A DNA stretch of 64,000 nt from Candidatus Woesearchaeota archaeon. Lineage in GTDB: Archaea > Nanobdellota > Nanobdellia > Woesearchaeales > JAFGPW01. A program made the translations under genes and the position numbers. This document shows positions 46,321 to 59,019 of this stretch, piece by piece. The stretch spans positions 86,956-150,955 of the forward strand of contig JAFGPW010000007.1 of NCBI GenBank assembly GCA_016935985.1. The letters are read 5' to 3'. Position 1 is the first letter of the stretch. Each line of letters opens with the position of its first letter. Under the pieces are notes generated by a model that was not told where the DNA came from, made no database searches, and worked only from the letters and a program-made list of their open reading frames with translations.

Positions 46321-47319
46321 ATGAGACGCCGGATCATCAAGCAAGGGCATAACACACTCACCATCACCCTCCCGTCAGACTGGACCAGGCAGCTGCACCT
46401 GAAGGCCGGCGATGATGTCGATATCGTCGAGCGGGAGACGAGCCTCGTCATCAACGGCAAGGACCAGGGCGAGAAGAGGTCCTATGATATCGACATAACC
46501 GACCTCACGGTCCCGATGCTCTGGCGCTACCTGCAGGGCGTCTACCGGGCCGGCTGCGAAGAGATCACCATCCATCTTGACCCGCATAGGAAGGAATACG
46601 AGGACCCCTACCATTATTATACCACCCAGTTCGACTATTCGAGGCTCGGGGAACGGGTCCCGACGAAGCCCGGGCTCGCCATGATGCAGGAGATCGTGAA
46701 CAGGTTCATCGGGATCGATATCATCGAGACAGGGAAGAACCACTGTGTCATACGGGAGATGGCAGCGGTCTCCCCGAAAGAGTTCGACAATTCCCTGCGG
46801 CGGATCTTCATCATCATGATCAACCTCTTCGACAGGCTCATGGAGGCGATCGAGAAGGACGAGATCGGTGACCCGAACCTCTGCAAGGAGATCCACACCA
46901 TCGACCTCAACATCGACAAGCTCGTCGACTACTGCGCACGGATCCTCAACAAGGTCTCATCCTCCTTCACCGAGAGGAGGAAGCAGCTCATCTTCTCGAG
47001 CCTCTTCATCCTCGAGCTCGCGGGCGACGAGTTCAAGTACATCGGCAAGCATCTCGCCACGTCGAAGGAGAGCGCGAAAAAGGTCCTCCCTCTCGCCCGT
47101 ATGGTGAAGGAGCACTTCGAGATCTACTACCGGATGTACTACGCGTACAGCAGGGAACTGGCGGTCGAGTTCGGCAGGCATGACATGAAGCTCTATGAGA
47201 CGCACTTCAACATGAAGGGTCCGCTGTCCGGAGAGACCAGGAGCATCCTCAAGCACTACATGCTGCTCAGCAAGTTCACGCTGGGGCTCGTGGAGCTGCG
47301 AATCCAGATGGAGTTCTAG
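46321..47319 (+). CDS. AbrB-like DNA-binding domain fused to PhoU domain (phosphate-type regulator)
   Basis: 332 residues. The first 50 (RRIIKQGHNTLTITLPSDWT, then LKAGDDVDIVE) form an AbrB/MazE swapped-hairpin DNA-binding domain. The rest is alpha-helical with two PhoU-like repeats (NSLRRIFIIMINLFDRLMEA; ERRKQLIFSSLFILELAGDE). Such fusions are widespread in archaea next to or acting on phosphate uptake genes; no Pst genes are in this window. The palindrome upstream supports autoregulation. Confidence 0.85.
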   Translation: MRRRIIKQGHNTLTITLPSDWTRQLHLKAGDDVDIVERETSLVINGKDQGEKRSYDIDITDLTVPMLWRYLQGVYRAGCEEITIHLDPHRKEYEDPYHYYTTQFDYSRLGERVPTKPGLAMMQEIVNRFIGIDIIETGKNHCVIREMAAVSPKEFDNSLRRIFIIMINLFDRLMEAIEKDEIGDPNLCKEIHTIDLNIDKLVDYCARILNKVSSSFTERRKQLIFSSLFILELAGDEFKYIGKHLATSKESAKKVLPLARMVKEHFEIYYRMYYAYSRELAVEFGRHDMKLYETHFNMKGPLSGETRSILKHYMLLSKFTLGLVELRIQMEF

Positions 47320-51308: not shown

Positions 51309-52223
51309 ATGGCAGGAGCCTCGGTCCTCACATATGTCTTCATCGGCATGATGGTCGTCTTCATGGTCTCGGCGATCGCGTTCGAATACCAGCAGTACGT
51401 GCAGGAACGCTCGCTCGCGACGAGGGAGGAGGCGGAGATCGTCACCGCCCAGCGCGGGACGACGGTCATCCTCACCGTTACCCGCTATGATGAGGCTGAG
51501 GACGACGCCCTCGTCGAGGCCGAGAACACCGGCAAGACAAGCATCTCGCTCAGCGACGTCGATTTCATCCTCGACGACGTGTTCGTGCCCAGAGAGCCAG
51601 GGTCACGGACACTCACCCTCCCGGTCGACCATGACGACGACGGGGTATGGGACAAGGGCGACATCCTGCTCGCGCGCATCAACCGAACCCTGGACGACGG
51701 CACCTACGGCGTCGTGCTGCTCACGCCGTACGGCGTCTTCCCAGGGGACCTGACCGTCGGCGACGACGTTTCGGAGACACTCTACGTCGCGGCCGGCACC
51801 TGGAGCCCCGCGGATCCGGGCGACCCGCTCAACTCGACGGAGCTGCTCGCGATCGACAACGACGGCGGGACCGCGATCGCGCTCGTCGGCATGGACCCTT
51901 TGGGGAACGACGCCGGCTGCGCGATGACGGACCTCGACGGGAGCATGGGCCAGCATCGGAGCACTAGGATCCTCGTCGACTACGACGCCCCGGCGATCGC
52001 CCCCGCGAGCCTCGTCGTCGAGGCGCGGAACGTCTCGTTCGCCGGCCCGCTCTTCTGCGGCGCGGCCTTCGGCCCGACAGCAGGCGAGGCGACCGCGGCT
52101 GTCGACTGCCCGGCAGCCGACACCCAGGAGGAGACCGACAATCTTTATATATATATCATCCTCTCCGACCCGAGCGACGTGACGCTCGACTTCGTGCGCG
52201 CGGAGATCAACTACACTGAGTGA
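51309..52223 (+). CDS. Pilin/FlaF-like surface protein
   Basis: 304 residues. One N-terminal membrane helix (about 5-25, SVLTYVFIGMMVVFMVSAIA) is followed by a beta-rich exterior. TVILTVTRYDEAEDDALVEA, then ENTGKTSISLSDVDFILDD resembles the beta-sandwich of archaellar FlaF/FlaG stator proteins and type IV pilin-like proteins. An acidic, DHDDDGVWDKGD segment could bind calcium. There is no class III signal peptide site that I can define. No other archaellum gene is nearby, so the role is uncertain. Its stop overlaps the next gene by 4 bases. Confidence 0.6.
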   Translation: MAGASVLTYVFIGMMVVFMVSAIAFEYQQYVQERSLATREEAEIVTAQRGTTVILTVTRYDEAEDDALVEAENTGKTSISLSDVDFILDDVFVPREPGSRTLTLPVDHDDDGVWDKGDILLARINRTLDDGTYGVVLLTPYGVFPGDLTVGDDVSETLYVAAGTWSPADPGDPLNSTELLAIDNDGGTAIALVGMDPLGNDAGCAMTDLDGSMGQHRSTRILVDYDAPAIAPASLVVEARNVSFAGPLFCGAAFGPTAGEATAAVDCPAADTQEETDNLYIYIILSDPSDVTLDFVRAEINYTE

Positions 52224-52903
52224 CGACCGTGAAGACCGTCTTCATCGAGGCCAGGTACCGGAGGGTGATCCGGCTCACCGAGAGCCAGATGCGGAAGCTC
52301 CCGGCGCGCGTGCTGCTGCTCGCGTCGGTCCAGTTCCTCGGCTCGCTCCCCGGGATATGGGAACAGCTCGAGCGGAGCGGGAGGATAGGCGTGCTGCCTC
52401 GGCTGCGGCATGCCGCGCACGACGGCCAGCTCCTCGGCTGCAACATCGCCGACATGCGGAAGATGGCGTTCGACGCGATCCTCTACGTCGGCGACGGCGC
52501 GTTCCACCCGCACACGCTCGTCCTGAAGAACGACCGGCAGGTGTTCCGCCTCGATCCCCGGAGCCGCAGGATGCGGGAGGTGCCGAGCGCCGAGGTGCGG
52601 GAGATGCGCAGGCGCATGAACGCGGCGCTCCTCTCCTTCCACCGCGCCGACCGCGTGGGCGTCCTCGTCACCGCCAAGCCGGGCCAGGAGCGGCTCGAGG
52701 CGGCCCTCCGCCTGCGGACGGCGTACCCTGAGAAGGAGTTCTTCTATCTCGTCGCCGACACGCTCGACCTCGCGTCCCTCGAGGACTTCCCGTTCCTGCA
52801 GTGCCTGGTCAACACCGCCTGCCCGCGCATCGGCTATGAGGACCATGCCGCGGCGCCGCGGCCGGTCATCAACCTCGATGAGGTGCTCGACACGGTCTTC
52901 TGA
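52220..52903 (+). CDS. Dph2-like protein lacking the first domain
   Basis: 227 residues against about 340 for archaeal Dph2. Matching blocks: VLLLASVQFLGSLPG and GQLLGCNIADMR (Cys74, the second cluster-ligand position), YVGDGAFHPHTL, VGVLVTAKPGQERLE and FPFLQCLVNTACPRIGY (Cys201, third ligand position). The first of the three homologous domains, which supplies the first cysteine, is absent. No separate domain-1 gene is visible within the window. Dph2 builds the 3-amino-3-carboxypropyl group of diphthamide on EF2 by radical SAM chemistry. With one ligand missing, activity is doubtful unless a partner supplies it. GTG start overlapping the previous stop. Confidence 0.8.
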   Translation: MTTVKTVFIEARYRRVIRLTESQMRKLPARVLLLASVQFLGSLPGIWEQLERSGRIGVLPRLRHAAHDGQLLGCNIADMRKMAFDAILYVGDGAFHPHTLVLKNDRQVFRLDPRSRRMREVPSAEVREMRRRMNAALLSFHRADRVGVLVTAKPGQERLEAALRLRTAYPEKEFFYLVADTLDLASLEDFPFLQCLVNTACPRIGYEDHAAAPRPVINLDEVLDTVF

Positions 52904-55650: not shown

Positions 55651-55738
55651 TTTATTTCGCTTCGAGCAGCAGGGTTATCCTGGGCTCTCCCTGCCGGTGA
55701 ACGTATAAAAACATGAGTTATTACTAAAAGATGAGAAA

Positions 55739-55749
55739 AATATATAAAC
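55739..55749 (+). promoter_or_regulatory. TATA box of the propeller-kinase gene
   Basis: aatatataaac, about 42 bases before the GTG at 55786; gtgggggat lies 7 bases before that start. Confidence 0.6.
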
Positions 55750-55785: not shown

Positions 55786-58700
55786 GTGCTTATCATGCCA
55801 GGCGGCCAGGAGAGCGGGCTCGAGGAGGCGGTGCAGCCGGTGTTCAGGAGGCCGAGGAGGTGGCTCTCGCGAGTGCGCGTCGGGCTCGCCGCGACCGCGG
55901 CGCTCGCGTTCCTCACCATGTACCTCGCCGACATCCTCGCGCCGAAGAGGGAGACCGCACAGGCGTTCCTGCAGGCCCAGGCCGAGAGCATCGCGCTCTA
56001 TGACCAGCACACATTCTCATCCTGCGCGACAGCGGTATTCGACGACGAGGAGCGGATGCCTGACCTCTACCTCGTCGACGGCGCGCGCGGGACCGCGGAA
56101 CGGCTCACGCATGACAGGAGCTACGAGAAGCCTGTCGCGATGCTGCCTGACGGCAGCGGCATGCTGGTCTCGGTCTCTGGCGACAGCCTCGATGGCCTGT
56201 ACCTCTCCGACCTGCGCTTCACGGACAAGGGATTCCTGTATAGCGACCCGCAGTGGCGTGAGGAGAGCCTCAGGTTCTTCAGGGGAGGGGAAGGTTTATT
56301 GTACCAGCGCTACGATGGGAGCCGATTCTCGCTCATGCGGTATGACCTCGGTAGCCGCACGCTCTCGACGGTCGCGAGCGTCGGGACAGGCGATGCGCAC
56401 CAGGCGGTCTGGGAGTCCTTCTCGCCGGCGCTCGACCTTGGCGGCACTGTCGTCGCCTATAACCTACCGCAGGAGGGGAAGAAGTCCATCGTCATCGAGG
56501 ACCTCACCACAGGAAGGAAGAGGCTGATACAGGGGATGCTCATGGACGGCGGAGATTTCCTGCCAGAGGGGATGGGGCTCGTGTTCGCCGAGCGCGGCAC
56601 CGGCCGGCTGTATCGCCATGACCTGGTGAGGGGCATCACCTCCCGCCTCGCCGAGACCGGCACCAGGCTTGAGGGTCCGTCGGTGTCGCCTGACGGCACG
56701 CTCATCGCCGGTCTCGCCGGCCACGGCCTCGACTCCCTGATCCTGTATGACAGCCGGACAGGACAGGCGCGGTTCATCGGCATCAGCAGGGGCGTCGACG
56801 GCCAGATCGAGAGCATCGCCTGGACCGGTCCGCGCTCGCTCGTCATGGGGACCTTCGCGACCGACGGCGAGCGCTTCACCACGGCCGACATCGACCTGGT
56901 CAGGGTCGGGGAGGGTCTCGAGACGAGGATTACGGACATCCTCGGGGAGAGCAGGGGGAGCTGGGAGTTCCTCGACGCTCTTGACAGGAGAGGGAAACGC
57001 GTCATCTTCAGGTCTGACAAGGATGCGACGCTCTTCGGCTCCTTCGACAGGTATGCCTGGCATCCGGACGATGGGAGCGTGACGCGCCTGACCAGGTTCG
57101 CCGAGAGCGCGGACTATCTCGTCGGCATCAACTACCCGCTGATGGGGCTCGCGCTCCTCGGTCTCGGCCTCTCGTTCGCCCCGTCCGCCTATTTCGCGCT
57201 CAAGGTCAGGCGCTCCATCGGACGGCGCAAGAAAAGGCGCGGCGAGAAGGAAGGCCTGCTCTCGAGGATCACAGGAAGCCCTGAGTTCTACGCCACTGCC
57301 GCGGCCGCAGCCGCGACGCTCCTCATCCCTGAGATGACGCCAGGGAAGGCGACCATCCTGAAGCCCTGGCTCAGGGAATCCTACCACGCGATCGCCTATA
57401 TCGTGCCGGCGAGCATCGGGCTCTTCCTTTACCCCACGCTCGCCCAGCTCTCGTTCTTCTCACGGCCGCGGCTGAAGAACATGCTGCAGAGCATCATGCT
57501 CTCCAGGGACTACCGGCGCGCGCTCAAGGACGATCCGGAGGAGGCGTATCGGCTCTCCAAGGGGTTCGCGGGGATCGTCGAGACCGACGACATGCAGGCG
57601 CCGCTGTATGCCGCCCAGGCGATGCTCGCGATGGGAAGGCCTGAGGAGGCGCTCTTCGAGATCAAGCGGATATCGTCGGGTATGTTGCGCGACCGCGACC
57701 TGGTCTTCCTGAAACGGGCGGATTTCTTCCAGCAGATCAGCGTGCTCCTCGGGAGGATGTCCTGGGGCTTGCCAAGGCAGGGGAAGGGAAGAGGGACCGC
57801 CGAACAAAGGCTCGGGAAGGCCGCGGTCGCCCTCTACGACGACAATCTCAAGGGCGCGAAGGCCTCGATGGACTCGCTCATCGTGACCGAGCACAATCCT
57901 GAACGCCGGATCGGCTACAAGATCGTGTACGGCAGCATGCTCGAGGCGATGGATCAGTACGGCGAGTCCGACCTGGTCTGGGGGTCTGTCGCAGAGGAGA
58001 TCGCGCGGTACTATGGGTCCCGGTTCCGTCCTATCGGCGGCAGCACCCATGAGGTGTGCGAGTTCGCGGCATCCGATTTCGGGAACCTTTTCAAGGGGGC
58101 GCTCGTCGCCGAGAGGAGCAGCAGGGAGCCGATACTGAGGAAGCACCTGCTCAACCGCTTCGTCGAGCAGGCCATGATCGAGCACATCCATAAACAGGGC
58201 CTCTCCTTCGACTGGTACCAGGCCGTGAGACCGCTCACCCATCTCCAGGTTGGGCAGCTCGAGTACGTCTTCTCGCAGCGGGACGGCATGAGGAACCTGG
58301 AGCAGACGCTCCCGCATATGGGCAGGCAGGAGCGGATCGAGGCGTTCGACCGGGCGGCCGACGGCATCGCGAAGATGCACCTCGTCCTCACGCCGGAAGT
58401 CAGGTCGGACGAGAAGGGATCCTACGTCAGCGCCATCGACAGGGCGAGGCGGCATGTCATCCCGCTGGGGCACGTCGACCTCCTACGTTGGGTCATCAGG
58501 CGGGCGTTCGATGGAAGGCAGGAGCAGGCGAACCGGCGTCTCAGGATACAGCCAGGCAGGCAGGAGGATTTCATGCAGCACCTCGGCCAGTTCATCGAGA
58601 GGAGCATCCCGAGGACGTCCGTACGGTATGTGCTGCACTACGACGCGTATGCGACGAACGTCACGGAGAACTCCACGATCATCGACTACGACAAGCTCGC

Positions 58701-59019
58701 CCTCGGACCGAACCCCATGCTCGACTTCACCCACCTCCTTGAGCATCCGCTGAACCCGGACAAGCCGGCGACCTATGACCACCTATGGGAGAAGATCATC
58801 CCGCTGTATCCCCCGCAGACGAGGGAAGCGATGCTCGAGGGCATGCTCCCCTGCGCAGCCATCACCAGCCTCTGCCTCGCCGGCGCGATGCTCGGCCAAG
58901 GGAACGGCCAGTACGCGGGGTACTACCTGAAGAACGCGCTCGGCAGGCTCGATGCGATCGGCGACCTGCCGCTCGCCTACGCGATGAGGAAGAACCTGAT
59001 ATCCCCGAAGGCCAGCTAG
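55786..59019 (+). CDS. Transmembrane beta-propeller protein with C-terminal kinase-like (APH-type) domain
   Basis: 1077 residues. TM1 (about 31-51) is followed by a TolB/WD-like propeller (about 60-440; blades such as PDLYLVDGARGTAERLTHD and EGPSVSPDGTLIAGLAGHG). TM2 (446-472), TM3 (501-518) and TM4 (532-557) follow, with a basic loop RRSIGRRKKRRGEK. A helical TPR-like stretch (about 575-740) comes next, then a phosphotransferase fold: FVEQAMIEHIHKQG (helix-C-like Glu), VLHYDAYATNV (His951-x-Asp953...Asn958), IIDYDKLALGPNPMLDFTHL (Asp967/Asp969). By the positive-inside rule the propeller is outside and the kinase part inside, a receptor-kinase layout. Start GTG 55786; ATG 55795 is an alternative. 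Substrate unknown. Confidence 0.75.
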   Translation: MLIMPGGQESGLEEAVQPVFRRPRRWLSRVRVGLAATAALAFLTMYLADILAPKRETAQAFLQAQAESIALYDQHTFSSCATAVFDDEERMPDLYLVDGARGTAERLTHDRSYEKPVAMLPDGSGMLVSVSGDSLDGLYLSDLRFTDKGFLYSDPQWREESLRFFRGGEGLLYQRYDGSRFSLMRYDLGSRTLSTVASVGTGDAHQAVWESFSPALDLGGTVVAYNLPQEGKKSIVIEDLTTGRKRLIQGMLMDGGDFLPEGMGLVFAERGTGRLYRHDLVRGITSRLAETGTRLEGPSVSPDGTLIAGLAGHGLDSLILYDSRTGQARFIGISRGVDGQIESIAWTGPRSLVMGTFATDGERFTTADIDLVRVGEGLETRITDILGESRGSWEFLDALDRRGKRVIFRSDKDATLFGSFDRYAWHPDDGSVTRLTRFAESADYLVGINYPLMGLALLGLGLSFAPSAYFALKVRRSIGRRKKRRGEKEGLLSRITGSPEFYATAAAAAATLLIPEMTPGKATILKPWLRESYHAIAYIVPASIGLFLYPTLAQLSFFSRPRLKNMLQSIMLSRDYRRALKDDPEEAYRLSKGFAGIVETDDMQAPLYAAQAMLAMGRPEEALFEIKRISSGMLRDRDLVFLKRADFFQQISVLLGRMSWGLPRQGKGRGTAEQRLGKAAVALYDDNLKGAKASMDSLIVTEHNPERRIGYKIVYGSMLEAMDQYGESDLVWGSVAEEIARYYGSRFRPIGGSTHEVCEFAASDFGNLFKGALVAERSSREPILRKHLLNRFVEQAMIEHIHKQGLSFDWYQAVRPLTHLQVGQLEYVFSQRDGMRNLEQTLPHMGRQERIEAFDRAADGIAKMHLVLTPEVRSDEKGSYVSAIDRARRHVIPLGHVDLLRWVIRRAFDGRQEQANRRLRIQPGRQEDFMQHLGQFIERSIPRTSVRYVLHYDAYATNVTENSTIIDYDKLALGPNPMLDFTHLLEHPLNPDKPATYDHLWEKIIPLYPPQTREAMLEGMLPCAAITSLCLAGAMLGQGNGQYAGYYLKNALGRLDAIGDLPLAYAMRKNLISPKAS

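Follow-up and report, generated by a model that had tools for sequence, protein, structure and literature searches.

The DNA analysed here (hereafter the window) is a 64,000-nucleotide stretch of a contig from a Candidatus Woesearchaeota archaeon. On its forward strand, positions 55786..59019 hold an open reading frame of 1077 amino acids, which starts with GTG, or alternatively with an in-frame ATG at codon 4, and runs as a single open frame without stops. The 1.4 Mb genome holds a single copy of this receptor/kinase-like frame. Just upstream on the same strand, at 55738..55747, lies AAATATATAA, a sequence unique in the window (0.01 expected by chance), which probably serves as the archaeal TATA-like promoter element. 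The neighbours are a divergent gene for a 499-aa membrane protein of unassigned family and a convergent AlaX-type tRNA editing gene. At 52220-52900 of the window, a match to a diphthamide synthesis protein begins at profile position 65 of 302, and this protein is possibly shortened at its N-terminus.

Transmembrane helices and the side of the membrane were called from hydropathy and charge. Four helices were found on the + strand, as the original prediction of one N-terminal and three further helices had it: TM1 (residues 34-52, 55885..55941), TM2 (residues 452-470, 57139..57195), TM3 (residues 501-519, 57286..57342), which is the weakest of the four, and TM4 (residues 535-553, 57388..57444). 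The predicted cytoplasmic side is positive, with a positive N-terminus and a very basic loop 471-499 (+9) after TM2, and the segment 52-444 is acidic (-15). The four helices and the positive-inside charge support the proposed topology, in which the propeller is predicted to lie outside and the remainder of the protein, kinase included, inside. A fifth helix at the hydrophobic residues 1019-1037 was considered and rejected, as this stretch is part of a helix in the confidently modelled C-lobe of the kinase.

Residues 58-445 (55957..57120, + strand) form a TolB/DPP-IV-like beta-propeller, predicted to be outside. TolB structures are matched by residues 205-347 in two repeats (phmmer, E 1.3e-9), and the NCBIfam TolB match spans residues 168-327 (E 2.9e-8), so that the TolB/PD40 repeats of a TolB-like propeller are present. 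A model built with six propeller regions of relatives, which is of modest confidence (pLDDT only 59), is all-beta, and Foldseek aligned it with propellers of the S9/DPP-IV, tricorn and TolB types (E 1e-11 to 1e-9). Both the sequence matches and the predicted structure thus returned the TolB/WD-like propeller expected at the N-terminus. Neither the genome of the window nor the relatives yielded a paralogue of the propeller when searched with it. Sequence and fold are common to TolB, DPP-IV N-terminal and PD40 propellers; unlike periplasmic TolB or the peptidase propellers, the window propeller is tethered to the membrane, in the position of a sensor.

After TM4 comes a TPR-like helical solenoid (residues 560-740, 57463..58005, + strand), seen as helix pairs in the AF2 model and as TPR Pfam matches in the relative G041, followed by an APH/choline-kinase-fold domain (residues 741-1077, 58006..59016, + strand). 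A Pfam search with the window protein alone gave nothing useful: PF01636 (APH) was not passed, and there was no match to PF00069 (Pkinase), for which reason a Hanks-type receptor Ser/Thr kinase was rejected. The assignment to APH comes from relatives and from structure. PF01636 is matched by 19 of 26 relatives (best E 2.5e-13), the family profile matches structures of ACAD11 kinase, choline kinase, APH and YihE, and the AF2 model of residues 730-1070 (pLDDT mostly 80-94) was matched by Foldseek to APH and ethanolamine kinases with probability 1.00 (best E 1.1e-4). The TPR-like region and APH-type kinase domain of the original prediction are therefore both borne out. Its two motifs, HYDAYATN and IDYD, correspond to the catalytic loop H951-Y-D953-AYAT-N958 (58636..58659; D953 and N958 invariant in alignments A3 and A4) and to the metal-binding motif D967-Y-D969 (58684..58692; D967 invariant in A3). 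Together with D980 (58723..58725), an invariant family Asp in the alignments, D953, N958 and D967 make up the Asp/Asn/Asp/Asp set kept by the C-terminal homologues. The domain shares its fold, the HxDxxxxN and ID[x]E motifs and the family Asp with the APH/choline kinase (CAK) family, PF01636, and differs from it by fusion to TPRs and membrane helices and, in the window copy, by replacement of the beta-3 lysine.

Homology over the C-terminal ~340 aa places the window protein in a family of TPR-kinases (profile A5, E 1.6e-81, the window protein being one of the A5 rows), and its single-sequence matches to relatives reach E 1.3e-16. The relatives were retrieved from genome contigs with alignment A2; a single-protein scan with the window protein found none. 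In profile searches the family was present in 55 of 371 genomes sampled across the phylum and, within the order, in 82 of 353 genomes, and the named matches are Woesearchaeota/Nanoarchaeota MAGs. No description of it was found in literature searches, Pfam or NCBIfam, and as far as these sources show, the claim that no described family has this order of domains holds. The domain order itself was also right, but the protein is no isolated fusion: its TPR-kinase half belongs to a broad DPANN family, and its layout is repeated in another genome.

Within this family the sensor is exchanged. Soluble TPR-kinases occur in G041, G132, G265 and G308, TM-TPR-kinases in G036, G055, G273 and G315, and further members are propeller-bearing receptors. 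The protein of G253 has the layout of the window protein (TM1 - 343 aa - TM2 - TM3 - TM4 - TPR/kinase), with a propeller-like N-terminus set among helices at 25-43, 387-405, 472-490 and 553-571, and its gene is convergent with an AbrB-PhoU gene. This N-terminus is propeller-like by its repeat-like sequence only; it matched no PDB sequence, and BLAST showed no similarity between it and the propeller of the window protein. In G251, G285 and G291-G293 a PD40-like propeller lies behind the kinase, after an extra (fifth) helix. By predicted topology, all propeller layouts have the propeller on the outer and the kinase on the inner side of the membrane, and it is mainly because both arrangements agree in this that we read these proteins as receptors. 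In G121 a helix is followed by another kind of C-terminal segment, which suggests that there are further sensors in the family. Genes for small one-helix pilin-like proteins lie ahead of the G253 receptor gene and flank its counterpart in G285 (L123:145-2889, L121:6718-8404).

The family genes are recurrently paired with a gene for an AbrB-PhoU protein, which has a MazE/AbrB N-domain and in some cases a recognisable PhoU domain. Of the loci with 900 b or more of 3' flank, 22 of the 37 strong ones and 6 of the 11 weak ones (28/48) have a convergent AbrB-PhoU gene within 700 bp of the kinase gene, and the chance expectation, by our own estimate for a gene family of few copies per genome, is well under 1%. 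The two genes stand tail-to-tail, often overlapping by 4-20 bp; in G265 and G301 the AbrB-PhoU gene is on the strand of the kinase gene. Many of these AbrB-PhoU genes have a divergent Lrp/AsnC-like regulator gene beside them. About 40% of the family loci are without the pairing, which counts against a partnership. Archaeal MazE/AbrB-PhoU regulators share the N-terminal MazE/AbrB domain of the candidate partner, and literature searches yielded no description of their pairing with TPR-kinases. Because the family is usually paired in this way, the earlier view of a one-protein sensor is correct in its receptor anatomy but probably incomplete, and a DNA-binding partner is likely.

The genome of the window carries four AbrB-PhoU copies and one fragment. 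An adjacent convergent copy, common though not universal in the family, is missing at the window gene; the nearest lies 8.4 kb upstream on the same strand (46321..47319, +). This MazE/AbrB-PhoU regulator, the most family-like of the four, groups with kinase-paired copies of other genomes (local support 0.98) and is a candidate partner. Another copy (C4:74627) has kept its Lrp-like neighbour and has no kinase, which also counts against a partnership. The corresponding segment, L179:4013-5533, with its Lrp-like gene divergent from AbrB-PhoU, resembles a family locus with the kinase missing. A third copy (C2:4169) adjoins gyrB, and G132 and G041 carry both kinase and AbrB-PhoU there. The copy at C2:87457 is convergent with the gene of a membrane kinase of Hanks type, and this meeting of AbrB-PhoU with an unrelated kinase type suggests that AbrB-PhoU proteins may generally be under kinase control in this genome. 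In that pair (L073:3458-6338, about 87.5-90.3 kb of C2) the Hanks-type kinase has one C-terminal TM helix. On contig C8 (L076:2194-9504) a same-strand run encodes an 874-aa protein with a repeat-like C-terminus, two protein-kinase-like proteins and a TPR/beta-helix-like protein.

On balance, we lean towards the view that the window protein is a transmembrane receptor of the DPANN TPR-kinase family, whose kinases would act with AbrB-PhoU so that an outside cue alters transcription. The extracellular propeller, held between TM1 and TM2, would bind a ligand (peptide, glycan or surface protein), and TM2-4 would relay binding to the cytoplasmic TPR solenoid and the APH/choline-kinase-fold domain. 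Across the family, the kinase would most likely act on the DNA-binding AbrB-PhoU protein of the tail-to-tail gene, or the two would be gated jointly, and through this step the outside cue would change transcription. The first half of this mechanism is drawn from anatomy and domain shuffling, the AbrB-PhoU step from gene linkage. Against it speak the position of the window gene, which is not adjacent to AbrB-PhoU, and the fact that APH-fold enzymes mostly phosphorylate small molecules. That DPANN archaea possess a whole class in which exchangeable extracellular sensors act through TM-TPR stalks on APH-fold protein kinases controlling dedicated AbrB-PhoU regulators is a tentative proposal.

The strongest competitor, which we hold to be possible though less probable than the reading above, is a pseudokinase receptor, whose kinase fold would be a nucleotide- or protein-binding switch without phosphotransfer. 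The original prediction of phosphorylation missed the change at the beta-3 Lys/Arg position of ATP binding, and activity cannot be assumed. Position 776 is Lys in at least 90% of family rows (A3, A4) and Glu in the window protein (codon GAG, 58111..58113, + strand), the next residue being R777; this substitution may abolish catalysis in the window copy. The glycine loop reads STHEV in place of SRNEV, its Asn being His756, and Asp969 is the residue after the aromatic of the DFG-like motif. According to Kannan et al. (PMC1821047), the loss of this Lys in choline/aminoglycoside-type kinases goes along with correlated, compensating changes in the glycine loop and in DFG. The same three places are altered here (H756, E776, D969), so that loss of activity is possible, not established, and the changes may also be read as compensating ones. 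This compensation argument is weakened by L050, a Lys-bearing relative in which position 969 is likewise Asp, and by five Lys-bearing relatives in which the glycine-loop Asn is absent. Inactive-looking copies do exist in the family, since G093 and G095 read HGN where the catalytic Asp would make it HGD, while in the window protein D953, N958, D967 and D980 are all kept, which drift would not favour. The branch with HGN (L125 in G093, L089 in G095) probably consists of pseudokinases, and its genes still stand beside AbrB-PhoU.

Rather unlikely, in our judgement, is a membrane-anchored small-molecule kinase whose substrate would be a lipid head group, a sugar or a phosphate metabolite; AbrB-PhoU would then sense its phosphorylated product or the phosphate state. 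The closest solved folds are indeed aminoglycoside, choline and ethanolamine kinases, and the PhoU domain suggests phosphate physiology; however, signalling accounts better for the TPR region, the exchangeable outside sensors and the long TPR arrays of soluble members, and protein kinases of the same fold are known (YihE/SrkA, also matched by the family profile). The MazE/AbrB N-domain of the partner recalls HipAB, where HipA is a kinase toxin with a DNA-binding antitoxin partner, but a toxin-antitoxin-like module is very improbable and was set aside: the gene pairs are mostly convergent and form no operon, the kinase has membrane and sensor domains, AbrB-PhoU paralogues exist without kinases, and the Pfam search gave no HipA match in the window protein. 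An assembly chimera of a TolB-like gene and a kinase gene, conceivable in a metagenome-type assembly of 10 contigs, is next to negligible and was also set aside, since GC3 is even (0.85-0.93) across every domain and gives no sign of a join, the frame is unbroken, and the unrelated genome G253 has the identical layout.

The receptor reading preferred here has parallels outside the archaea. PknD-type receptor kinases combine a cytoplasmic kinase, a TM helix and an extracellular propeller, and the layout of G285 and G291 is nearer to PknD than that of the window protein. Bacteria are already known to have receptor kinases that carry propellers and TPRs but have a different kinase fold, WD40, PD40 and TPR being common partner domains of bacterial transmembrane Ser/Thr kinases (PMC2877116). 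These kinases and PknD have a Hanks-type fold, usually an N-terminal kinase and one TM, whereas the window protein has an APH/choline-kinase fold, a C-terminal kinase and four TMs and is archaeal. The AbrB-PhoU gene linkage is likewise a feature of the DPANN family, unlike the bacterial kinases, and should AbrB-PhoU output be confirmed, the system would count as a new class of signalling.

The DPANN archaea are host-attached organisms whose sensing of the outside is largely uncharted. If our reading is true, the fold of aminoglycoside and choline kinases would, strikingly, have been taken over for signalling, and membrane kinase-fold receptors with swappable sensors, tied to a DNA-binding regulator, would provide a testable sensing pathway of DPANN archaea.
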